Source: an uncultured beta proteobacterium
Lineage (GTDB): Bacteria; Pseudomonadota; Gammaproteobacteria; Burkholderiales; Rhodocyclaceae
DNA length: 61,542 nt
Direction of reading: 5' to 3'
NCBI GenBank assembly: GCA_903848955.1
Contig: CAINHS010000136.1
Coordinates: forward strand, 1 to 61,542
Position 1 is the first letter of the stretch. Each line of letters begins with the position of its first letter. Of the stretch, positions 48,975 through 61,542 are shown one piece after another. The position numbers and the translations under genes are program-made. The notes under the pieces are model-generated. The model searched no databases and had not been told where the DNA came from. It was given only the letters and a program-made list of their open reading frames with translations.

Positions 48975-50234
48975 CTAATGCTTCAGAGCTGCAAAGGCAC
49001 TGGCCGATAGTTCGATATCGGCGGCAGAAATCTTTGCTCGCCGGGCGACGGTATGCCATTCAGTCACTACCGAGACAAGCTCATCGATAATTTCCTTGGC
49101 ACGTTGGGGTGTCAGGCGATAGAACGCCGCCGTTGCAAACACCGCCCCGAGTGAAGGGCGGTTGTCGACATCATCGATATTGAGCACATGCGTCGATTTA
49201 TCGATACTTGGATTCACATCAAACGCGGGTGACAACCTCCAGCCACGTTTGCCCAGGATGAATCCATGGTTTCGCAGATGGTCATCACGATTACCGACAG
49301 CGACATTGAATGCCACCCGTCGGAACAGCTGTTCGAGATCAACCTGAATGTGATCGGGGTCGCCTCGCCGAGCGAGAAACTCCGCCAGTTCCAGATAGCT
49401 AGTCCCTTCGCTGACATCCTTGCCGAGCAGGGTCATCGCCGATGCGTAAAAACGTCGCCGTCCCGGTTTTTCGTTATTTACAGTTGTGCGATCAAAACGC
49501 TGGACACAAAAGGTATGGTGCCCGCCCTGCCCCAGGCGTTCTACTTTCGCAACCGGCATATCAATGCCAGCCTGCCTTGCCAACCACCAAGTCACGCCTT
49601 CCCAGGCACCGATATCGCGGTCATCCTCTGCGGCAGGAAACTTGGCAATCCACAGTGCCCCGGTCTTGTCGCAAAAATTCGCTTTGGGGCGGGCACCTCC
49701 CAGTGACGCCCCGGGTGCAACCAGCACGGCAAGCCAGCGCCTGAGTTGATCCAGGTTGTCGATATGCTTGCGCGTCAATTCTTTGGCGATTGCCGCCAGT
49801 TCAGCCAGGCTCGTTATCGGCGGGGCTGCCAGTGCTTCGTTGGCTAGAAAGGTATCGCTGTCTGTGAAGCGGAAGCGAAGGGCTCCCTGCCGGGTGATGT
49901 CTTGCACCCCCAACAGGAAGTCCCAGGAATACAGTGTCCGGGCAGTACGCTTTTCGTCCTTGGCTTGCAGTGTCTCCCTGCGCCGCATCAGGGTTTGCCC
50001 CCATCGATCCGGAGATGAGTCGAGAAAGACGCCGAAGTTCCCTGCCTCGGGCTTGGGAAAGAACGGACCGGCGTCAAGGGTCAGTTGCGGATCGATGGCA
50101 AAGGCGATGTCCTGCTGTGTCAGCCAGGTCTTGTCGTAATGGAAGCGGACCTGGCCACGATCATGGGCCAACGTTCCCAATCGCTGCAATGGGCAGAGGT
50201 CGCAATCGAGCCAGACTTCCAGGGACCTGCTCAT
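48975..50234 (-). CDS. hipA: HipA-family serine/threonine kinase toxin
   Basis: 419 residues. The N-terminal HipA_N domain has FGVFLDSSPDRWGQTLM. The kinase core has the Gly/Ser-rich loop PGASLGGARPKA, the catalytic VGNRDDHLRNHGF and the metal-binding SPAFDVNPS. All key kinase residues look intact. HipA kinases phosphorylate aminoacyl-tRNA synthetases and induce dormancy. It overlaps hipB by 4 bases (ATGA), giving coupled expression from the hipB promoter. Confidence 0.92.
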   Translation of the reverse strand: MSRSLEVWLDCDLCPLQRLGTLAHDRGQVRFHYDKTWLTQQDIAFAIDPQLTLDAGPFFPKPEAGNFGVFLDSSPDRWGQTLMRRRETLQAKDEKRTARTLYSWDFLLGVQDITRQGALRFRFTDSDTFLANEALAAPPITSLAELAAIAKELTRKHIDNLDQLRRWLAVLVAPGASLGGARPKANFCDKTGALWIAKFPAAEDDRDIGAWEGVTWWLARQAGIDMPVAKVERLGQGGHHTFCVQRFDRTTVNNEKPGRRRFYASAMTLLGKDVSEGTSYLELAEFLARRGDPDHIQVDLEQLFRRVAFNVAVGNRDDHLRNHGFILGKRGWRLSPAFDVNPSIDKSTHVLNIDDVDNRPSLGAVFATAAFYRLTPQRAKEIIDELVSVVTEWHTVARRAKISAADIELSASAFAALKH

Positions 50235-50539
50235 TTCCGTGTCTTTCTCGGAGCAGGCAATGCGAGGTCTTGAAGGCGGCGCCCGAGAACATCGTCCCCC
50301 GCCACAATGGAGAGATCGTTTTCCAGCCCGTATATGGCAAGGATGCGTAAATATGTACCCAAGGTAACCGAGGGGTCACCCCGTTCAACCTTGGCCAGCG
50401 TGGGTCGGGAGATATTGGCACGCTCGGTGACGACCACCGCCGTCAGGCGACGGCGCAGTCGAGCAAGACGCAGTCGCTCACCGAAATCGGCCAGCAATTT
50501 AGCTTCGGACGGGAATGCAAGGGGTGCTTTGCTCGGCAT
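50231..50539 (-). CDS. hipB: HipB-type XRE antitoxin
   Basis: 102 residues with an XRE-family HTH (LLADFGERLRLARLRRRLTAVVVTERANISRPTLAKVERGDPSVTLGTYLRILAIYGLENDL). It should neutralise HipA and repress the operon. The -10 box ends about 10 bases before the ATG and there is no ribosome binding site, so the mRNA is predicted to be nearly leaderless. No alternative start lies before the HTH. Confidence 0.9.
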   Translation of the reverse strand: MPSKAPLAFPSEAKLLADFGERLRLARLRRRLTAVVVTERANISRPTLAKVERGDPSVTLGTYLRILAIYGLENDLSIVAGDDVLGRRLQDLALPAPRKTRK

Positions 50540-53460: not shown

Positions 53461-54087
53461 CTAGCCAATTGCCTCGAGATAGGGGCGCATTACGTTGGCG
53501 ACACGACAAATCTTGGCGAAGTGCCAGAGGTCATCAGCGGAAGCCTTTTTCTGCGCGCGTGCATTCTTCAGTGCCTCCAGTGCCACATCAAGTCCGATCT
53601 TGTTTCGGTGTTTGAAGCAATCGGCGATCGCCTTGGCAACGCCATAGACCCGAAGCTTCACCTTGTCACGTACGAAAACTTCAACTCCGTCCTCATAGGC
53701 GTCGCCAGAAAACTGAACCATCTTCAGCGGTGGATAGTCGATCTTGGGTGCATGACTGCCACGCGGCATGCCAATCCAGACTTGGCGAGGTAGTTGAGTG
53801 GTCAGTTCATGAAACTGGAGTGCGGTCATCAGGCAGAAAACCGCTTGGGGAACACGCGTCGCGATGGTGACCATGCTCTCGTGTTCCGACATGGGCGCTG
53901 AAGGCAGTCGATAAAGCCCTCGCCCTGCCCTTTCCAGTTGGCCCGTGGCGATCAAACGTGAAAGATAGATTCGGGGTATGGCGGTTGTGTGTAGTTCGCG
54001 GGAGCGCATTACGCCTTTCTGGCGCACCAGACGAAGGAGTTTTCGGGTGTGGTTGTCGGATTGCATGGCCGTGCCAGTATGTTCCAT
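53461..54087 (-). CDS. AbiEi-type antitoxin/transcriptional regulator
   Basis: 208 residues. The N-terminal winged HTH (KLLRLVRQKGVMRSRELHTTAIPRIYLSRLIATGQLERAGRGLYRLP) is the AbiEi_4 antitoxin domain. The AbiEi C-terminal region follows (PQAVFCLMTALQFHELTTQLPRQVWIGMP, VYGVAKAIADCFKHRNKIGLDVALEALKNA). In complete type IV systems an AbiEii nucleotidyltransferase toxin gene follows directly; here only a short frame is left before the fic gene, so the antitoxin looks orphaned. Its start overlaps an upstream frame (TAATG). Confidence 0.85.
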   Translation of the reverse strand: MEHTGTAMQSDNHTRKLLRLVRQKGVMRSRELHTTAIPRIYLSRLIATGQLERAGRGLYRLPSAPMSEHESMVTIATRVPQAVFCLMTALQFHELTTQLPRQVWIGMPRGSHAPKIDYPPLKMVQFSGDAYEDGVEVFVRDKVKLRVYGVAKAIADCFKHRNKIGLDVALEALKNARAQKKASADDLWHFAKICRVANVMRPYLEAIG

Positions 54088-54402: not shown

Positions 54403-54846
54403 TCAGGCGGCAATAGCCTTGCACTGTTTAATACACTCGGTGCAGGATTCACGGCAGGCCTTGCATTCGGCATGCTTGTCCTCATGCTTCTTGCATTCAT
54501 TCTCGCATTCGGTGCAGGCGTCCAGCGCGACCTTGGCTAGACCTGGTGTGAGCCTGGAACCCTGCGCCGCCAGGTTTTGCAGCGCACCACATAGCGCCAG
54601 CATCTGGTTGACCGCCTTGGAGCAGCCGGCCATGGTCTTGTCGCCATCGCCGAGCAGGACCAGGCAGTGGGCGAGACAGGCCTCGCCTTTGGCGACACAG
54701 TCGCCAGTCGCGGCGATCAGTCCTTGGTACTTGGACCCGCTACCGTGACCGTGATGATGGCTGTGATCTTCGGCGGCTGAAGCGGACACCGCCACAGCGG
54801 CAAGGGCAATAGCAGCGGCAGATTGAAGCAGTTCGCGACGGTCCAT
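54403..54846 (-). CDS. Csp1-type copper storage protein (Tat-exported, 13 Cys)
   Basis: 147 residues. The twin-arginine signal MDRRELLQSAAAIALAAVAVSASAA is probably cut before ED. A His-rich stretch (HSHHHGHG) comes next, then a four-helix bundle with exactly 13 cysteines in CxxC/CxxxC spacing (CVAKGEACLAHC, CTECENEC, CKACRESCTECIKQC). This is the layout of methanotroph Csp1, whose cysteines point into the bundle and hold many Cu(I) ions. CCAGGAGAA precedes ATG 54846. It is the last gene after oprC-like-tonB-exbB-exbD, so it probably stores copper brought in by that uptake system. Confidence 0.87.
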   Translation of the reverse strand: MDRRELLQSAAAIALAAVAVSASAAEDHSHHHGHGSGSKYQGLIAATGDCVAKGEACLAHCLVLLGDGDKTMAGCSKAVNQMLALCGALQNLAAQGSRLTPGLAKVALDACTECENECKKHEDKHAECKACRESCTECIKQCKAIAA

Positions 54847-54988
54847 GGTAGTTCTCCTGGTAAATGAGCGAATACATCTCTTGCAATTTTGCGCCAACGG
54901 TATGCTTCTGGCCATACCCATCGCGCACTGGCGCCACGCATTGATTCCTGGGGACACAGGCATTACGCTCTTGGCCCCTTGGTTTCTA

Positions 54989-55396
54989 TTATTTGGCTGG
55001 GTCAGTTATGAAACCGATCCGCACCAGACCGCTCTTGGCGGCCAACGACATGACCTGCGCCACAATTTGATAGCGCGCATTGCCGTCAGCACGAATGTGC
55101 AATTCCGGTTGCGGCTGCCGCTGTGCCTCTGCCGCAAAACGCGGTGGCAAGTCCTTCAGCAACACTTTCTCACCGCTCCAGAACAGTTCGCCCCCTTCAC
55201 GAATACCAAACTCGATGTGCTCCGGCTTGGTGATGTTGGCGTTGCTCGACGCCTTGGACAGATCTATCTTCACGGCATGGGTCAGCAGCGGTGCCGTGAC
55301 AATGAAGATCACCAGAAGCACAAGCATGACATCCACCAGCGGCACCACGTTCATGTCTGCCATTGGTGTCTGGCGGCGATATTTGTTGAATGCCAT
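54989..55396 (-). CDS. exbD: ExbD/TolR-type biopolymer transport protein
   Basis: 135 residues: one N-terminal membrane helix (MADMNVVPLVDVMLVLLVIFIVTAPLL) with the essential proton-path Asp (VPLVDVML), then a periplasmic domain (IRADGNARYQIVAQVMSLAAKSGLVRIGFIT). With ExbB it couples the proton gradient to TonB. ATG 55396 follows a TTG in frame and lies 9 bases after exbB. It is dedicated to the adjacent receptor by context. Confidence 0.9.
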   Translation of the reverse strand: MAFNKYRRQTPMADMNVVPLVDVMLVLLVIFIVTAPLLTHAVKIDLSKASSNANITKPEHIEFGIREGGELFWSGEKVLLKDLPPRFAAEAQRQPQPELHIRADGNARYQIVAQVMSLAAKSGLVRIGFITDPAK

Positions 55397-55405
55397 CAAG
55401 CGCTC

Positions 55406-56110
55406 CTAGCGTTGCGCAGCGGAAGGTTTGATCGATTCGCCCTTGCCTGCCCTGACCGTCAACAGCACGTACAGATCGTGGGCAAAGGATTCCAGGCGAG
55501 AGAGCCACATGCGGTTGCGCCGGTTGAAGGCGTTGTAGGCCAATACCGCCGGGATCGCTACGGCCAATCCAAGAGCAGTCATGATCAGCGCCTCTCCCAC
55601 CGGTCCGGCCACCTTGTCCAGGGTGCCCTGCCCGCTCATGGCGATCTGCACCAGGGCATGGTAGATGCCCCAGACGGTGCCGAATAGGCCGACATATGGT
55701 GCGGCAGACCCCGCCGAGGCAAGTATCGTCAGCCCGTACTCAGATGCGGCGGCTTCCTGATCCACTTCGTTGCTCAAGGTGCGCGTCAGATACTCCCCCA
55801 TACCTCCAGCCAAGGCCAGGTTTTCCTTACCGCTATCACCCAGTGCCTCAAGGGATTTCTGCACCAGTGCCGCAAAGACGTTGTCGACCGGTTGCGCGCC
55901 CAAGGTCGCCTCAACCTCGGTCAGCGATGAGGCCGCCCAAAAGTGTTTGAGGAAGGTGTCCGCCCGCCGTTGAGCGAGCGTATTGGCCAACGCCCGGGTG
56001 ACAATGAGATACCAACTCGCCATTGAAAGCAGCAGAAGCACTCCCAGCACCGCCTTGCCCACGCCGTCGGTCTGGGTGAGAAAGTGGGCAAAGCCGAGTC
56101 CTTGATCCAT
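55406..56110 (-). CDS. exbB: ExbB/TolQ-type proton channel protein
   Basis: 234 residues with three membrane helices (about 17-38, 130-155, 175-200). The conserved core LASAGSAAPYVGLFGTVWGIYHAL and GPVGEALIMTALGLAVAIPAVLAYNAF is present. It forms the pentameric channel of the TonB motor. GGAAAC precedes ATG 56110, four bases after the tonB stop. An upstream in-frame extension lies inside tonB and is rejected. Confidence 0.92.
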   Translation of the reverse strand: MDQGLGFAHFLTQTDGVGKAVLGVLLLLSMASWYLIVTRALANTLAQRRADTFLKHFWAASSLTEVEATLGAQPVDNVFAALVQKSLEALGDSGKENLALAGGMGEYLTRTLSNEVDQEAAASEYGLTILASAGSAAPYVGLFGTVWGIYHALVQIAMSGQGTLDKVAGPVGEALIMTALGLAVAIPAVLAYNAFNRRNRMWLSRLESFAHDLYVLLTVRAGKGESIKPSAAQR

Positions 56111-56114
56111 GAGT

Positions 56115-56765
56115 TCAGTTTCCTTGCAGGATGAATTTGAAGGGTTGCAGTGCGATGGCGCGAACAGGTTGGCCATTGCGGCTGGCGGGAGTGCAGCGCC
56201 AAGTTCGCACTGCCGCCATGCCTGCGTCATCGAGACGGGGATGGCCGCTGCTGCTGACGATGTTGGCAGATCCAACGCGTCCTTGTTCGTCAAGTTCGAC
56301 ACGAAGAATCACGGTCCCCTCTTCGCCTAGCCGGCGTGAAATGGAAGGATAGTCGGGCGGTGTCCGGTCCGGGCAGGAAACGGAGAGTTCGGCGCCGAGG
56401 GTGACCGAGCCAACCTGCCTCGGAGCGGCGATTAGTGGCGCCTCAATTACCGGGGCAGGCTGAGGCTGCGGTAGGGCGACGTAATCTGCAGGAGCGATAG
56501 TTGGCGTTTCGGCTTCAAGTTGCCGCGGTTGGGGCATCTCAACCGGGCGAGGTTTGGGTGGCGAGGGTTTGTGTGGCTCGTCCACCTGGGGATCCGACGG
56601 AGCAATCAAATCGACGAACAGCGTCATGGCATCATGCGGGGTTGGGATCAGACGGTGCTGCCATAGAGCCCACAGGATTGCGACGTGAAGGACCAGCACG
56701 ATTACCAGTCCCACCGCGCCTACTCCACGATCAGTTGTTTGGTCGCCCAGCATTCTGCGGATCAT
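56115..56765 (-). CDS. tonB: TonB-type energy transducer
   Basis: 216 residues from ATG 56765 (MIRRMLGDQTTDRG). It has one membrane anchor (VGAVGLVIVLVLHVAILWALW), a Pro-rich periplasmic spacer (PHKPSPPKPRPVEMPQPRQ) and the TonB C-terminal domain (CPDRTPPDYPSISRRLGEEGTVILRVELDEQGRV...AAVRTWRCTPASRNGQPV). It transmits energy to the receptor. The start is uncertain: ATG 56753 is also possible and neither has a strong ribosome binding site. It lies 140 bases after the receptor gene. Confidence 0.9.
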   Translation of the reverse strand: MIRRMLGDQTTDRGVGAVGLVIVLVLHVAILWALWQHRLIPTPHDAMTLFVDLIAPSDPQVDEPHKPSPPKPRPVEMPQPRQLEAETPTIAPADYVALPQPQPAPVIEAPLIAAPRQVGSVTLGAELSVSCPDRTPPDYPSISRRLGEEGTVILRVELDEQGRVGSANIVSSSGHPRLDDAGMAAVRTWRCTPASRNGQPVRAIALQPFKFILQGN

Positions 56766-56905
56766 TCTATGGGCATAGAGCGTAGATATTCGATCTCGGA
56801 ACGGGAATACCGAATGCCGTCTCGTCGGCGCCGACTCTTTGATAGGTCGCAAAAGAGCGCCGGCGCAGGGCCAGCGTCAAGACCACGCTATTCAAAAGAA
56901 CTCGT

Positions 56906-59137
56906 TCAGAACTTGTAGTTGACTCCAGCGTAGAGTGAGTGGCCCATTCCGGGCACGGAGACGTTCCAGGGCAAGGCAAGGCCCATGGTCGTACCTTGAC
57001 CGGTATAGGCGCCGCCAAGCGGTAGGGAATAGAACTTGTTGAACAGGTTTTCGATGCCGAAATCGACCCGGGCCTGCTTCCATGAATAGCTTGCGCGCAG
57101 ATTGACCAGGCTATAGCCCGGCGTCTTGATTTCGTTGCGCGCGTCGGAGACCTTGTTCTTGGCATCCACCATCACCAGCTCGACGCCGTTATCCCATCCT
57201 CCCAGCTTCTGTGTCAGCGTCAGCTTGGCGTTGAGCGGCATGATGTTGTAGAGCTCGTCGCCGGTATCGCGGTTCTTGCCGTTGGTGTAATTCAGCAAGC
57301 CCTTCAGCCCCAGTTCGCCCAGGCCGGTCTTGGCTAGGGGCATGCGGCCGGAGAGGTCGATGCCATAGAGACGCGCCGACTGGTTGGTGTATATGAGTAC
57401 GACGAACTGGTTCGTCAGCATGGGGCTGCGCGCGACGTTGGTAGTGCCATTCCATTGCACGGCATCGATGTAGTCGGTGACCCGCGTGTAGTAGGGCGTG
57501 GCCTTGAATTCCCAGTCGCGGTTGGCTGCGTGCCAGTCGAAAGTCGCCGAAAGGGTGTGCGCCTTTTCCGGCTTCAGATTGACGTCGCCGAGGTAGCCAT
57601 TGCCGTCGCCGACATAGTTGTTCATGATCGCCATCATGTCCGCGGTGGACCAGGAATAGCGTTCATACAGGTTAGGCGAGCGCACCTTGCGCGCAAAGCC
57701 GAACTCAATATCTTGCGTGGTGTTCGCTGTATAACGTGCGAGCGCCGTCAGATCCCAGTTGTTGTCGGTCTTGTCGCGATTGGCGTTGTTGAAATTGGAC
57801 GCATCACGTTTTTGACTCATCATGTCCATGCCAACGATGCTGGTCGGGAAATAGGCGGTGTTGTAGCCGCGGATGGGGCCGGCATTTGTTTCCACCCGCT
57901 CGAAGCGAATGCCCAGCAGCGCCAGCCACTCCTTGCTCAGGCGCTGTTCCCATTCGCCGAACAGCGAGGTGCGGTTGCGCTCACCGTTGTTGATGTTGAG
58001 AAAATCGTTCGGTCCCATCATCATGGCGCCAACTACAGCCGGCCACCAGTCGTTGAGGCGGTATTGTTGCCATTCCCCGCCGACGCGCAGGATGTCCTGT
58101 TTGCTCAGATCGATGTTCGCCTTGATGGTGGCACCGGTGGTCTTGCCTTCGGTTTTCATCGGCATGCCCTGGGAGGTATTGCCGGCGGTGTAGGCGAACT
58201 TCTTGTCGGGGCCAAACTCCATGAAATGCTTGACGTTCTCGTTATAAATGCGCGCATCCAGCGTGCCCCAGGCGAGCTGTCCCAGATAGCGCAGGTTCAG
58301 GCTTCGCTGCTCGTTGTCGAGCAGGTCCATGCGCTGGTTGGGATAGAGCTGCTTTGGCATGTCCTGCAATCCCAATTTGGCCTCGATTAAATGGTTGGTG
58401 CCCTTGAAGGCGACGCCCAGAGTCTGGTTGGTGGTTTTGTAGGCGCTGGATCCGACCTCGTTGAGCGGCAGGGTCTCGGTGCCCCGGCCGGTAGCGGAAA
58501 AGGTCTTGAAGTCGGCGGCCGCCTTGTAGTTGTCAGCCGCGCTGGTCGCCCCGCTATAGGTGATGTTGAAGGAATCGGTGGCGTAGGTTCCCGCGAGATT
58601 GCCGCCGCTTGCCTTGTTGTTGCTACGATAGAAGGCGCCGGCTTCTCCCTTGAACAGGCTGGCCTGACCCGCAGCGGCAAACTCGGGCGCCGGCGTCTCG
58701 GCAACGATGGTGCCGCCGATGCTGTCGCCACCGACGCTGACCGGCGTGATGCCGGCATATACCTTGATCGTTCCCACATTGGTCGGATCGATATAGGACA
58801 GCGCCGGATTCATGTGGTTGGGGCAAGATGAAATCAGGTCCATGCCGTCGAGCTTGACGCGCACCCGGTCGTCGGCCATGCCATGGATCGCCGGCAGGCT
58901 GGAAACCGCACCGGCACCGTAGAGGCTGACACCGGGGATGTCGCGCAGCAGGCTCGCCGTGTCGCTGGTGGCGGCACGCTGGGCTGATAAGCGCTTGCTC
59001 CCCACGTCCGCGCCATCAAAGCGTTCGGTGCTGCGTTGGCCGACGACGACAACGGCATCCAGAGTATTGGCCTCGCCTGCTGCAAAGGTAATGCACGGTA
59101 GGGCCGCCAGGGTGGCAGACAGAATCTTGCGTTTCAT
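56906..59137 (-). CDS. TonB-dependent copper receptor, OprC/NosA-like
   Basis: 743 residues. The signal peptide is MKRKILSATLAALPCITFAA. A TonB box-like LDAVVVVG follows, then the plug domain (SLLRDIPGVSLYGAGAVSSLPAIHGMADDRVRVKLDGMDLISSCPNHMNPAL) and a 22-strand-type barrel ending in an aromatic Phe (GVNYKF). Residues 105-109 read C-P-N-H-M, the CxxxM copper-binding motif of OprC; this plus methionine-rich loops (GAMMMGPND, VGMDMMSQ, TADMMAIMNN) marks it as a copper porin. The neighbouring tonB-exbBD and Csp1 genes support copper uptake. Confidence 0.88.
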   Translation of the reverse strand: MKRKILSATLAALPCITFAAGEANTLDAVVVVGQRSTERFDGADVGSKRLSAQRAATSDTASLLRDIPGVSLYGAGAVSSLPAIHGMADDRVRVKLDGMDLISSCPNHMNPALSYIDPTNVGTIKVYAGITPVSVGGDSIGGTIVAETPAPEFAAAGQASLFKGEAGAFYRSNNKASGGNLAGTYATDSFNITYSGATSAADNYKAAADFKTFSATGRGTETLPLNEVGSSAYKTTNQTLGVAFKGTNHLIEAKLGLQDMPKQLYPNQRMDLLDNEQRSLNLRYLGQLAWGTLDARIYNENVKHFMEFGPDKKFAYTAGNTSQGMPMKTEGKTTGATIKANIDLSKQDILRVGGEWQQYRLNDWWPAVVGAMMMGPNDFLNINNGERNRTSLFGEWEQRLSKEWLALLGIRFERVETNAGPIRGYNTAYFPTSIVGMDMMSQKRDASNFNNANRDKTDNNWDLTALARYTANTTQDIEFGFARKVRSPNLYERYSWSTADMMAIMNNYVGDGNGYLGDVNLKPEKAHTLSATFDWHAANRDWEFKATPYYTRVTDYIDAVQWNGTTNVARSPMLTNQFVVLIYTNQSARLYGIDLSGRMPLAKTGLGELGLKGLLNYTNGKNRDTGDELYNIMPLNAKLTLTQKLGGWDNGVELVMVDAKNKVSDARNEIKTPGYSLVNLRASYSWKQARVDFGIENLFNKFYSLPLGGAYTGQGTTMGLALPWNVSVPGMGHSLYAGVNYKF

Positions 59138-59216
59138 AGGAGTTGATCCAGAAGTAATGGAAATGGTATGCAGAATTTGGTGCGCGCAATGTTAGGGGCA
59201 GACGATCGCGCGGCAG

Positions 59217-59265
59217 TGCGACAAAGAGTCGCATGCGGCGATATGTCGCGCGACATGGTGTCGCG
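59217..59265. promoter_or_regulatory. Three tandem RegA/PrrA-like boxes in the divergent promoter
   Basis: TGCGAC-AAAGA-GTCGCA (59217-59233), TGCGGC-GATAT-GTCGCG (59234-59250) and CGCGAC-ATGGT-GTCGCG (59249-59265). All fit YGCGRC-N5-GTCGC, close to published RegA/PrrA binding patterns. They lie 80-128 bp before the copper receptor and about 210-255 bp before the divergent gene at 59472. A RegA-like regulator is encoded within 1.3 kb. Apart from these sites, 59138-59471 has no gene. Confidence 0.65.
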
Positions 59266-59471
59266 CTATCGCACCGATTGGAATACCTCTTGACGGCAAT
59301 CAAGGACTAGCCACCTGCCCAGACGTACAACGGCGCCCGCCGAGTTCGACAAGAAAGACGTAGCGGACTCCTTTCTCAACGCCTAAGATTGCAGCGCATT
59401 TCTCATTCTCCACAGAGGACATCATTGGTAGCCGCGAAGCCCTCAAGGGGCTGCTGCGGCGAGGCGCAGCC

Positions 59472-59942
59472 ATGAAATTCAGCAAATCTCACTGGGTCAG
59501 CTTGGCGATGTTGGTGGCTCTCTTGGCCACAGGGGTCATAGCACGTCATTTCTCGCCGCTTCTCCTTCCCGTATCCGACGTGACAGGAGTGGTGGACTCA
59601 GGATGCGACTTGCAGCGGCGAGCTTGCGCGGCAAGGCTAGCAGACGAGGGGAGTCTGGAATTCTCGATCACGCCTCGTCCAATCCCGCTTCTTCAACCAT
59701 TGCGTGTTGAAGTCACCGTCAGCGGAATCAAACCCAAGAAAGTCGAAGTCGATTTTGCCGGGGAGAGCATGAGCATGGGCTACAACCGACCCGAACTCCG
59801 GGCCAGCGGCCCCGGCCGTTACGCCGGAGAAATCTCGTTGCCGGTCTGCTCGTCGGGAGGCATGGCATGGGTGGCAACGGTAATGGTCGAAACCGATCAC
59901 CAGCGTATCTCGGTACCCTTTCGCTTCGACACGGGGCACTGA
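59472..59942 (+). CDS. Small membrane-anchored periplasmic protein, possible metal binder
   Basis: 156 residues. One N-terminal membrane helix (WVSLAMLVALLATGVIA) is followed by a periplasmic Ig-like beta domain (LRVEVTVSGIKPKKVEVDFAGESMSMGYNRPELRASGPGRYAGEISLPVCSSGGMAWVATVMVE). The fold resembles FixH/YtkA-like domains. Met100 and Met102 in SMSMG, three cysteines (about 45, 52, 126) and a Met-rich end could bind copper. It is transcribed divergently from the copper receptor across the RegA-like boxes. Function not established. Confidence 0.65.
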   Translation: MKFSKSHWVSLAMLVALLATGVIARHFSPLLLPVSDVTGVVDSGCDLQRRACAARLADEGSLEFSITPRPIPLLQPLRVEVTVSGIKPKKVEVDFAGESMSMGYNRPELRASGPGRYAGEISLPVCSSGGMAWVATVMVETDHQRISVPFRFDTGH

Positions 59943-59975
59943 GTCAGCGCAAGCTTACCCTGCGCTGCTCACGCC

Positions 59976-60530
59976 CTACCGGCTGGCGGGGCGTTTCAGA
60001 AGCTTGCGTTGCAAGGTGCGCCGATGCATGTTGAGCGCCCTCGCAGTAGCTGAAATGTTTCCCTTGTGCTCGCGCAACACGCGCTGGATGTGCTCCCATT
60101 CCAATCGGTCTACGGACATTGGCGCATGCGCAGTGGCTGCCGGCGTACTTGTTGCCAGTGAGTTTTCGTCGGCATGAAGTGCGTGATCAAATGCATCCAG
60201 CAATGTAGCCACGTCCACGGGCTTGGCCAGATACTGAACGGCGCCCAGTTTTATCGCGTCGACGGCCGTGGTGATGCTGGCGTAGCCGGTCAGTACGACG
60301 ATTCGGCAGGCAGGGTTGAACTCCAGCAGACGGGGAATCAGGTTCAGGCCCGACTCGCCGGCGAGGTTCAGGTCCAGGACCACTCTGTCTGGGGCAGATG
60401 TCTGCGCTTGGCTGAGCGCCTCAGCCACGCTCTTCGCCGCAACAGCGGCGTAGCCACGCCGCTTCAGAGCACGCAACAGTGCTGCGCTGAACGTGTCGTC
60501 GTCCTCGATGATCAATATGGTTTCGCTCAT
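59976..60530 (-). CDS. RegA/ActR/PrrA-like redox response regulator
   Basis: 184 residues. The receiver domain has acidic pocket EDDD, phospho-acceptor Asp53 (VVLDLNL), the Thr switch in VLTGYAS and Lys in AKPVD. A Fis-type HTH follows (WEHIQRVLREHKGNISATARALNMHRRTLQRKLLKR), nearly the invariant RegA helix. RegA proteins switch respiratory, carbon and nitrogen genes with redox state. The start overlaps the sensor gene stop by 4 bases (ATGA). The nearby YGCGRC-N5-GTCGC sites suggest it controls the copper locus. Confidence 0.9.
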   Translation of the reverse strand: MSETILIIEDDDTFSAALLRALKRRGYAAVAAKSVAEALSQAQTSAPDRVVLDLNLAGESGLNLIPRLLEFNPACRIVVLTGYASITTAVDAIKLGAVQYLAKPVDVATLLDAFDHALHADENSLATSTPAATAHAPMSVDRLEWEHIQRVLREHKGNISATARALNMHRRTLQRKLLKRPASR

Positions 60531-61542
60531 GCTGCTCCCGCTTTCATCTGCTCAGCTTGGCTGGCAATCGGCAGTTCGATGCTGACCCGCCCGCCGCCGT
60601 CAGCCGGATTGTCCAGCACGATACGTCCGCCCAATCGCTCGACGGCTGAGAACGCCAGCAACAGGCCTATACCGGCGCCGCCGTTGCGTGTGGACAAGGG
60701 CACGCGCCCAGCCCGGCTAAGCACTATGGCCGAGAAGCCGGGCCCCGTGTCCCTGATCACAATCCTCAGTTTGTTTTCTTCCCAGCCGAGTTTGATTTCA
60801 ATCTCGCCATTACTGGCATCGGCTGCATTGTTGAGTACATTGGCCAGGGCCTGCTCCAGCGTAGCCTCGGTGACAATCCGTGGCATGCAGACGCAACTTT
60901 CGAATGTCAGCCGGCTGGTCGCTCGTGGCCGCATCGCCTGCCAGCGAGCCCGAACACCCTCCAACCAGACTAAGGCATCCTGTACCTGAACCTGCTCCGG
61001 TCGCAACAATCCGGCACGCGCCACCATGCTGCTGATGATGCTCTTGCACAGCGCTATCTGGTTTCCCACCAAACCAAGGTCCTCGCGTGCCTCGGCATCA
61101 AGATGGGCATCCCTCTCCAGTTCACCGACAACTACGGCCATGGTTGCCAGCGGCGTACCCAATTCATGCGCAGCACCGGCGGCCAGTGCGCCGAGCGCCA
61201 CCATGCGTTCATCGCGCAGTGCCTGCTCGCGGGCAGCAGCCAGACGACTATCGCGTTCGTGGATCGATGCCGTCATGCGCGCCACGAACCAGGCGATCAT
61301 GGTCGCGGACACCACGAAGGTCAGCCACATCCCGGCCAAGTGCAGGCGTGCTGCACGCTCGGCATCGGCAAGGCGAAGCGGCAGAAACTGCCACATCAGC
61401 AGCGAATAGAGCGCGATGGCCATCAACGCCACGGCAGCGGTCAGGGTTCCGGGCAAGGACAACGCTGCCACGGCAACGGGCACAAGTAGGAAGGAAATCA
61501 GCGGATTGGCTGCCCCACCCGACAGATATAACAGGATCGCCA
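60527..61542 (-). CDS. RegB/PrrB-like redox sensor histidine kinase (N-terminus beyond window)
   Basis: About 338 residues visible, open at the right edge. At the edge lies SGGAANPLISF, matching the RegB quinone-binding GGxxNPF motif (Leu for Phe). Two or three membrane helices follow, then the H-box GAAHELGTPLAT, a Cys in QIALCKSII near the position of the RegB redox cysteine, N-box NVLNNAADAS and G-boxes DTGPGFS and GGAGIGLLLA. It senses the redox state of the quinone pool and phosphorylates the adjoining regulator. Confidence 0.9.
   Translation of the reverse strand, partial: AILLYLSGGAANPLISFLLVPVAVAALSLPGTLTAAVALMAIALYSLLMWQFLPLRLADAERAARLHLAGMWLTFVVSATMIAWFVARMTASIHERDSRLAAAREQALRDERMVALGALAAGAAHELGTPLATMAVVVGELERDAHLDAEAREDLGLVGNQIALCKSIISSMVARAGLLRPEQVQVQDALVWLEGVRARWQAMRPRATSRLTFESCVCMPRIVTEATLEQALANVLNNAADASNGEIEIKLGWEENKLRIVIRDTGPGFSAIVLSRAGRVPLSTRNGGAGIGLLLAFSAVERLGGRIVLDNPADGGGRVSIELPIASQAEQMKAGAA

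Follow-up and report, generated by a model that had tools for sequence, protein, structure and literature searches.

One end of a 61,542-nucleotide stretch of DNA from an uncultured beta proteobacterium (contig CAINHS010000136.1; the whole stretch is called the window here) carries genes for a TonB-dependent receptor, TonB, ExbB, ExbD and Csp1, and the best reading of this locus, which we hold to be probable, is redox-controlled, TonB-driven import of copper that is stored or buffered by Csp1. The receptor would capture copper at a CxxxM-HxM site, the adjoining TonB-ExbB-ExbD would power its passage into the periplasm, and Tat-exported Csp1 would take up the incoming copper as Cu(I), in a form both harmless and still available to cuproenzymes, most likely haem-copper oxidases including cbb3. 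RegBA, a sensor of the quinone pool, would control the receptor gene through three adjacent inverted-repeat boxes. The identities of the genes, the conservation of the metal-site residues, the repeated linkage of the genes and the conservation of the boxes were observed directly.

Gene content of the locus

Translation of the open reading frames (ORFs) in the window confirmed what the initial annotation had described, namely that receptor, tonB, exbB, exbD and csp1 run in one direction; all five are open, on the minus strand (Table 1). Neighbouring genes were typed by profile searches in all six frames, as longest-ORF calling hid genes on the opposite strand. The tonB gene has an alternative, also open, TTG start at 56852. 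TonB_C, MotA_ExbB and ExbD domains all score above the Pfam gathering thresholds (PF03544, PF01618 and PF02472), and the window proteins miss the NCBIfam equivalog cut-offs for exbB and ExbD. For the initial description of this energy module as dedicated, linkage is the only ground; the genome contains eight TonB_C matches, of which the window tonB is the best.

Table 1. Features of the locus in window coordinates. Bit scores of the boxes come from a matrix built without the window sites.
Feature	Position	Strand	Profile or score
csp1, 147 aa, twin-arginine start, His-rich stretch, 13 Cys	54403..54846	-	TIGR04401
exbD, 135 aa	54989..55396	-	PF02472
exbB, 234 aa	55406..56110	-	PF01618 (MotA_ExbB)
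tonB, 216 aa from ATG	56115..56765	-	PF03544
TonB-dependent receptor, 743 aa, C105-P-N-H-M109 and H304-F-M306	56906..59137	-	PF00593/PF07715 (TonB_dep_Rec, Plug)
Box GCGAC-N5-GTCGC, nearest receptor start	59218..59232	.	18.4 bits
Box GCGGC-N5-GTCGC, middle	59235..59249	.	19.5 bits
Box GCGAC-N5-GTCGC, farthest from receptor start	59250..59264	.	16.7 bits
Divergent ORF, 156 aa, no assigned family; upstream region common with receptor	59472..59942	+	
regA-like response regulator, 184 aa	59976..60530	-	NF033791, score below cut-off
regB-like histidine kinase, 5' end past contig end, frame open there	60527..61540	-	NF033792, score below cut-off

Csp1

The identification of a 13-Cys Csp1 was borne out: the protein scores 171.4 bits against TIGR04401 (curated cut-off 100), it is matched by Csp1 of Methylosinus trichosporium OB3b (PDB 5fjd) with an E value of 2.6e-25, and it has 13 Cys when read from the ATG at 54846 (16 in the longer ORF from 54963). 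R3, R4 and all 13 Cys are invariant in 16 Csp1 sequences, and the N-terminal twin arginine predicts Tat export. If imported copper reaches this protein, it could serve mainly as a safety buffer that mops up excess Cu(I) arising from active uptake rather than as a store for later. The gene linkage described below fits this explanation equally, and the source of the Cu(I) of the gonococcal Csp is called unclear in the literature (PMC12510493); however, the typed genes of the window include none for efflux or detoxification, and we regard a mainly protective role as unlikely.

The receptor and its predicted metal site

The initial annotation had called the receptor OprC-like, a description that applies to its metal-site residues and not to its family. 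CPNHM occupies residues 105-109, and neither CxNHM (a CxxxM-type motif) nor HxM varies among the 29 aligned members of the receptor family. A profile of this family aligned to the OprC structure 6fok (E 8.9e-39), with CxxxM and HxM falling on the CPNRM and HIM of OprC, whose copper ligands are Cys143, Met147, His323 and Met325 (PMC8610252). The comparison supports a receptor with a predicted OprC-type metal site. Against TIGR01778, the OprC/NosA equivalog, the receptor scores 121.8 bits with a cut-off of 472.45; membership in OprC/NosA is therefore ruled out, and the receptor belongs to a separate family. An AlphaFold2 model from 8 sequences, meant to show whether the four site residues come together in space, was set aside because its mean pLDDT was 47.8.

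The receptor might instead carry another cargo (haem, zinc or a metallophore complex), with Csp1 as a neighbour that handles copper separately. Its highest NCBIfam scores are to haem-receptor models, which outscore TIGR01778 and are themselves below cut-off; at one locus (L065) the genes flanking csp1 and the receptor gene include a ZnuABC-like set and a FecCD transporter accompanied by a binding protein; and at another (L189) there is a weak ZnuD match (32 bits, cut-off 950). Set against these observations are the invariant Cys, Met, His and Met at the OprC ligand positions, the ranking of solved relatives, in which OprC comes first and the haem receptor PhuR follows at 3.6e-21, and linkage to Csp1 beyond chance, which together make a different cargo improbable.

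Linkage of Csp1 to the uptake genes across genomes

In 8 of 42 genomes ExbD is encoded no more than 5 kb from Csp1, against an expectation of 0.55, so the linkage exceeds chance. Overall, ExbD lies at this distance from Csp1 in 16 of 80 loci, every time on the Csp1 strand, and the synteny search that the initial annotation had proposed recovered the five-gene order in 11 of the 80 Csp1 loci. One of these 11 (L189) is the only one with a CxNHM receptor, from the same family as that of the window; the other 10 use another receptor group. Receptors of other groups that are encoded whole, on the same strand and no more than 6 kb from Csp1 number 23, and none of them has CxxxM in residues 61-220. 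The linkage also occurs in a cultured environmental relative, Aquitalea magnusonii DSM 25134 (L170). The receptor is also more frequent in genomes with Csp1 (16 of 29) than in others (58 of 370).

These counts recast the claim that receptor, energy module and Csp1 form one unit. Similar gene sets recur in related bacteria but follow no fixed rule: a search out to 6 kb from the receptor detected no Csp1 at 40 loci chosen by receptor in other genomes (some of these stretches end at a contig edge), and in 10 of the 11 loci that share the five-gene order the receptor is from another group. That the receptor gene, tonB-exbB-exbD and csp1 are instead three independent transcription units, chance neighbours with no shared physiology, would suit the two longer intergenic gaps of 140 and 142 bp (the four gaps being 140, 4, 9 and 142 bp in gene order), the terminator-like stem 3' of the receptor gene (56876-56858, of a kind no commoner in the window than in shuffles, 7 versus a mean of 6.0) and a csp1 without a box of its own, but the same-strand and same-order recurrence makes it very improbable. 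Copper import with storage, as originally put forward, draws on the identity of Csp1, the OprC-type site, the linked TonB-ExbBD and the tie across genomes, from which we infer copper binding and transport.

Inverted-repeat boxes and RegBA

Three GCGRC-N5-GYCGC boxes lie upstream of the receptor gene, an observation new to this analysis. Such a box precedes 22 of 49 receptor genes of the family (30 sites), versus 20 of 416 other upstream regions (21 sites); it also precedes regB in 10 of 12 loci, versus 4 of 74 other long ORFs, and 13 of 25 other receptor genes. Boxes are rare upstream of csp1 (11 of 110 upstream regions), and the window csp1 has none. Across the window genome the simple pattern is not commoner than its reversed control (226 versus 458 places), and the paired pattern occurs 3 times versus 2 for the control.

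The RegBA pair noted alongside the uptake genes is present upstream as homologues, which are not contiguous with the five-gene set because the divergent plus-strand ORF intervenes. For this ORF Pfam gives nothing up to E 10 and NCBIfam gives no match; a single homologue is encoded close to a different receptor (L124; E 5.5e-12). The window RegA scores 175.8 bits against NF033791, missing the cut-off of 250 and covering profile positions 2-170 of 173, with the next-best match in the genome at 54 bits; its single Cys is residue 75. RegB, with its 5' end missing, scores 192.5 bits against NF033792 (cut-off 350) over profile positions 85-419 of 423, and has GGAANPL where the quinone motif, defined as GGxxNPF (PMC8191878), is expected.

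RegA is the likely reader of the box, judging from the occurrence of the box before both family receptor genes and regB, and the locus is probably switched by a respiration-sensing regulator. Of the redox control proposed initially, the conserved box before receptor genes and regB lends it substance, and binding by RegA is the inferred part. Weighing against such binding, PrrA/RegA sites are described as degenerate (PMC4263372), and in Methylomonas the promoters of tbdr and tonB are described as RegA-dependent, yet unbound in ChIP (PMC13274454), so strain DH-1 was ruled out as a case of direct RegA control of these genes.

Proposed destination of the copper

Nitrous oxide reductase, one purpose suggested for the copper, is unsupported because NosZ was not found in the window genome (reported as 99.97% complete) with TIGR04246, which is not the clade I model; PF18764 was silent here and in the controls alike. 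The best TIGR04246 match scores 40 bits over profile positions 498-577 only and is likely a cupredoxin-type domain, versus 925-926 bits for NosZ in two Azospira control genomes. Genes for cbb3 are present, and the oxidases are likelier to be the copper sink than NosZ.

Implications and comparison with known systems

According to the literature, it is unclear where periplasmic Csp1 obtains its Cu(I) (PMC12510493), and the copper transporters of the outer membrane identified so far are few (PMC12914433). A directly testable supply route for this Cu(I) is offered by the genes linked to Csp1, namely an energy module and a receptor whose site is of the OprC type. In a previous survey of betaproteobacterial copper proteins, TonB receptors are described as omitted because they lacked a signature (PMC6769254); CxNHM with HxM could be one. 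Through the box that regB and receptor genes have in common, the uptake of copper would be coupled to the redox state of respiration. A broader scheme, unlikely when taken whole, is a RegBA-run regulon of Betaproteobacteria that acts as a copper bank: the quinone pool would signal a need for high-affinity oxidases, RegA would activate TonB-driven metal import through receptors of unrelated groups that have the box in common, and periplasmic Csp1 would hold the banked copper. Loci of the Gallionella type also encode, in the same run of genes, a ferredoxin-type membrane protein and a DsbD_2 protein, which in this scheme would provide the electrons that the periplasm otherwise lacks for making the Cu(I) of Csp1.

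Judging by titles and abstracts, the combination of receptor, TonB-ExbBD and Csp1 was not found described in the literature, and the examined passages of a review that includes Csp, exbB and exbD (PMC7558416) describe no such cluster. Each of its parts has known counterparts. OprC of Pseudomonas aeruginosa and NosA of P. stutzeri are also TonB-dependent receptors with CxxxM and HxM copper-site motifs; unlike theirs, the window receptor gene sits beside those for TonB-ExbBD and Csp1. CrtA (BfrG of Bordetella pertussis, OptJ) is described as a TonB-dependent copper receptor tied to respiration, with ExbBD and TonB genes in some crtA loci, as in the window (PMC12914433). According to the same source, however, CrtA lacks conserved Cys and Met, and a PepSY_TM gene lies downstream in more than 75% of its loci, whereas one Cys and several Met are invariant in the window family, and tonB-exbB-exbD-csp1 follows the receptor gene; with C105 and several Met conserved, the receptor was ruled out as a CrtA.

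Csp1 of M. trichosporium OB3b shares the Tat leader and 13 Cys with the window protein, but its context is given as methanobactin and pMMO (PMC7558416), whereas the window Csp1 lies beside a TonB uptake set. Like RegBA, PrrBA and ActSR, the window pair consists of a kinase and a Fis-type regulator; unlike them, the window RegA falls under the NF033791 cut-off and has the lone Cys 75, and the box has a spacer fixed at 5.

Gene organization and identification of Csp1

The five genes for the receptor, TonB, ExbB, ExbD and Csp1 lie on one strand with intergenic gaps of 140, 4, 9 and 142 bp, in that order. Beyond the divergent ORF are a RegA-like gene and then a RegB-like gene that is ended by the contig edge (both from Pfam/NCBIfam). 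The initial annotation took the 13-cysteine, Tat-type protein to be Csp1, and model TIGR04401 confirms this (171.4 bits, cut-off 100); the twin arginines, all 13 cysteines and His60 are invariant in an alignment of 16 sequences. The divergent ORF had no match in a Pfam search; its one homologue, in locus L124, is close to another receptor, and it has a boxed upstream region in common with the window's receptor. Past csp1 are an AbiEi-like antitoxin ORF and ORFs that we take to resemble HipA and its HTH partner (53461-54087 and 48975-50539).

Features of the locus and its boxes (inverted repeat GCGRC-N5-GYCGC)
Feature	Coordinates	Strand	Basis or remark
TonB-dependent receptor	59137-56906	-	Pfam/NCBIfam
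tonB	56765-56115	-	Pfam/NCBIfam
exbB	56110-55406	-	Pfam/NCBIfam
exbD	55396-54989	-	Pfam/NCBIfam
csp1 (147 aa, twin-arginine start, 13 Cys)	54846-54403	-	TIGR04401
Divergent ORF (156 aa)	59472-59942	+	upstream of receptor
Box	59218-59232		upstream of receptor; 18.4 bits
Box	59235-59249		upstream of receptor; 19.5 bits
Box	59250-59264		upstream of receptor; 16.7 bits

The receptor has the residues of an OprC-type metal site

The receptor had been called OprC-like, a description that holds for its metal site but not for membership of the TonB-copper model TIGR01778, against which it scored 121.8 bits, well under the cut-off of 472.45. Two haem-receptor models scored it higher (162 and 157 bits), both below their own cut-offs. 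Among solved structures, its only relatives at E 0.001 were OprC chains (six distinct sequences; best E 9.1e-17), and a search with the receptor-family profile (14 sequences) placed OprC first (E 8.9e-39; PhuR, E 3.6e-21). Cys105, Asn107, His108, Met109, His304 and Met306 are invariant in a 29-member alignment, the CxNHM motif occurs in 50 of 51 receptor-family ORFs from all loci, and profile alignment places CxxxM on CPNRM and HxM on HIM of OprC, whose ligands are described as Cys143, Met147, His323 and Met325 (PMC8610252). The failed TIGR01778 cut-off, together with invariant motifs aligned to OprC ligands, marks a receptor family that is separate from OprC and has an OprC-like site. CrtA, described in PMC12914433 as having no conserved Cys and Met, is ruled out as the identity of this receptor, since Cys and Met are invariant in its family.

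Linkage to csp1 recurs, in varying form

Among 399 genomes of the same order, Csp1 (above cut-off) was found in 29 and the receptor (E 1e-50 or better) in 74; of the 29 genomes with Csp1, 16 also had the receptor, versus 58 of the 370 others (Fisher test uncorrected for kinship, P = 4e-6, rising to 1e-5 once the window's genome is left out). In a first sample of 29 Csp1 loci from 28 other genomes, three contained TonB, ExbB and ExbD (L051, L061, L062) and three a CxNHM receptor (L052, L063, L065; one partial). A second sample comprised the best 80 of 149 confirmed Csp1 relatives in named genomes; at least 11 of the 80 contigs, matched by their length, are also in the first sample, so the two are not independent, and a few families supply many of the loci. 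Within these best 80, ExbD lay within 5 kb of csp1 in 16, always on the same strand (10 within 500 bp), and the one-strand order receptor-TonB-ExbB-ExbD-Csp1, with extra genes allowed between, occurred in 11. For the 42 loci with genome-wide ExbD-family counts, such proximity was observed in 8 cases versus 0.55 expected. Eight of the best 80 had a CxNHM receptor (L149, L152 [partial], L158, L160, L170, L183, L189 and L203), and L189 has it in the window's five-gene order.

The proposal that these genes form one unit stands as recurrent linkage, but not as a fixed pairing: csp1 was found within 6 kb of the receptor in none of 40 receptor-chosen loci from other genomes (roughly the higher-scoring half of receptor matches, a few stretches being shortened by contig ends, with the Csp1-linked receptors of L052 and L065 outside this sample). 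L189 is also the only one of the 11 five-gene-order loci with a CxNHM receptor; L182 and L190 have receptor fragments only, and the other eight have whole receptors without CxxxM in residues 61-220, suggesting either a different cargo or a different form of copper at those loci.

Other gene sets accompany these genes elsewhere. In L062 (1363-8441) and L061 (717-8459), csp1 adjoins a gene run that encodes a TonB receptor, TonB-ExbB-ExbD, a DsbD_2 protein and a membrane protein of 4Fe-4S type, which scores 63 bits as NapH/MauN-like (cut-off 213); this set could possibly supply electrons to the periplasm for Cu(II) reduction. L102, L105, L113, L114 and L117, in which csp1 was not found, have comparable genes for Fe-S, DsbD_2 and TonB-ExbBD proteins near CxNHM receptors (Pfam run on one member per cluster). 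In L065 (3819-11537), csp1 is next to a CxNHM receptor and is flanked by two transporters, one ZnuABC-like and the other, on the opposite side, of FecCD type and accompanied by a binding protein.

A box shared by receptor and regB genes

The window holds five matches to the pattern GCGRC-N5-GYCGC (shuffle mean 2.1), and its genome shows no enrichment (226 places versus 458 for the reversed control); two neighbouring boxes occur at three places, two in the window and one on contig C89 (control 2), and a stricter form at four, one at the window (control 0). The case for the box rests on relatives. The pattern precedes 22 of 49 receptors, whose upstream regions (14.7 kb) contain 30 sites; among 416 other upstream regions of these loci (118.9 kb), 20 have it, with 21 sites. 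Of the 49 receptors, 41 come from the 40 receptor-chosen loci, seven from Csp1-chosen loci and one from the window, some being close kin with an identical site. Markov shuffles gave a mean of 0.31 and a maximum of 3, the reversed pattern gave 0, and among spacers of 2-9, a spacer of 5 gave 30 sites and the seven others 1 in total.

Further boxes were scored with a matrix built from 20 distinct sites that did not include those of the window (highest possible score 28.4 bits). A box of at least 12 bits lies within 200 bp of 10 of 12 regB genes, 43-66 bp ahead of the called start (three being Methylotenera with identical sequence), versus 4 of 74 other long ORFs of the same loci (not receptor, csp1 or regB). 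Of 25 receptors from other groups that lie up to 6 kb from Csp1 and on its strand, 13 have a box within 300 bp. Boxes were found in 11 of 110 csp1 upstream regions (overlapping samples counted twice); the window's csp1 upstream region has none. Pairs 15 bp apart are common (L159, L164, L169, L173, L189, L192, L196 and the window, whose pairs are spaced 15 and 17 bp), as if regulator dimers bound side by side.

RegA is the natural candidate for binding the box. RegBA homologues are in 7 of 41 receptor loci, window included, and regB in 6 of the best 80 of 149 Csp1 loci; besides the RegA of the window, no RegA-type regulator was found in its genome (next match 54 bits). The spacing of RegR boxes in Bradyrhizobium is reported as variable (PMC4064962). 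In Methylomonas, regA deletion is reported to lower tbdr and tonB expression, the promoters showing no appreciable RegA binding (PMC13274454). The copper-binding RegA of R. capsulatus is described as working via Cys156 (PMC9147068), whereas the sole Cys of the window's RegA is residue 75, so that mechanism is not transferable as such.

Proposed function and relation to known systems

The gene identities, metal-site conservation, linkage and boxes are best read as a locus in which the receptor would bind copper and bring it into the periplasm, driven by TonB, Csp1 would store or buffer it there, and RegBA would exert control, with RegA as the proposed binder of the boxes. Of the two destinations first suggested for this copper, nitrous oxide reductase loses ground, profile searches having found no NosZ in the window's genome (3.62 Mb, 151 contigs, reported completeness 99.97%). 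Oxidase supply would be the likelier purpose, since four COX1-family genes are present, one barely above cut-off, and one adjoins a FixP-type cbb3 subunit gene. Another candidate locus for copper uptake lies on contig C80 of the same genome (L239, 3388-6508), where a further TonB receptor gene comes after one for the copper chaperone PCuAC.

For the joining of these parts with a shared box, we found no description in a search of open-access literature. Each part belongs to a known kind, namely OprC/NosA, CrtA, Csp1 and RegBA.
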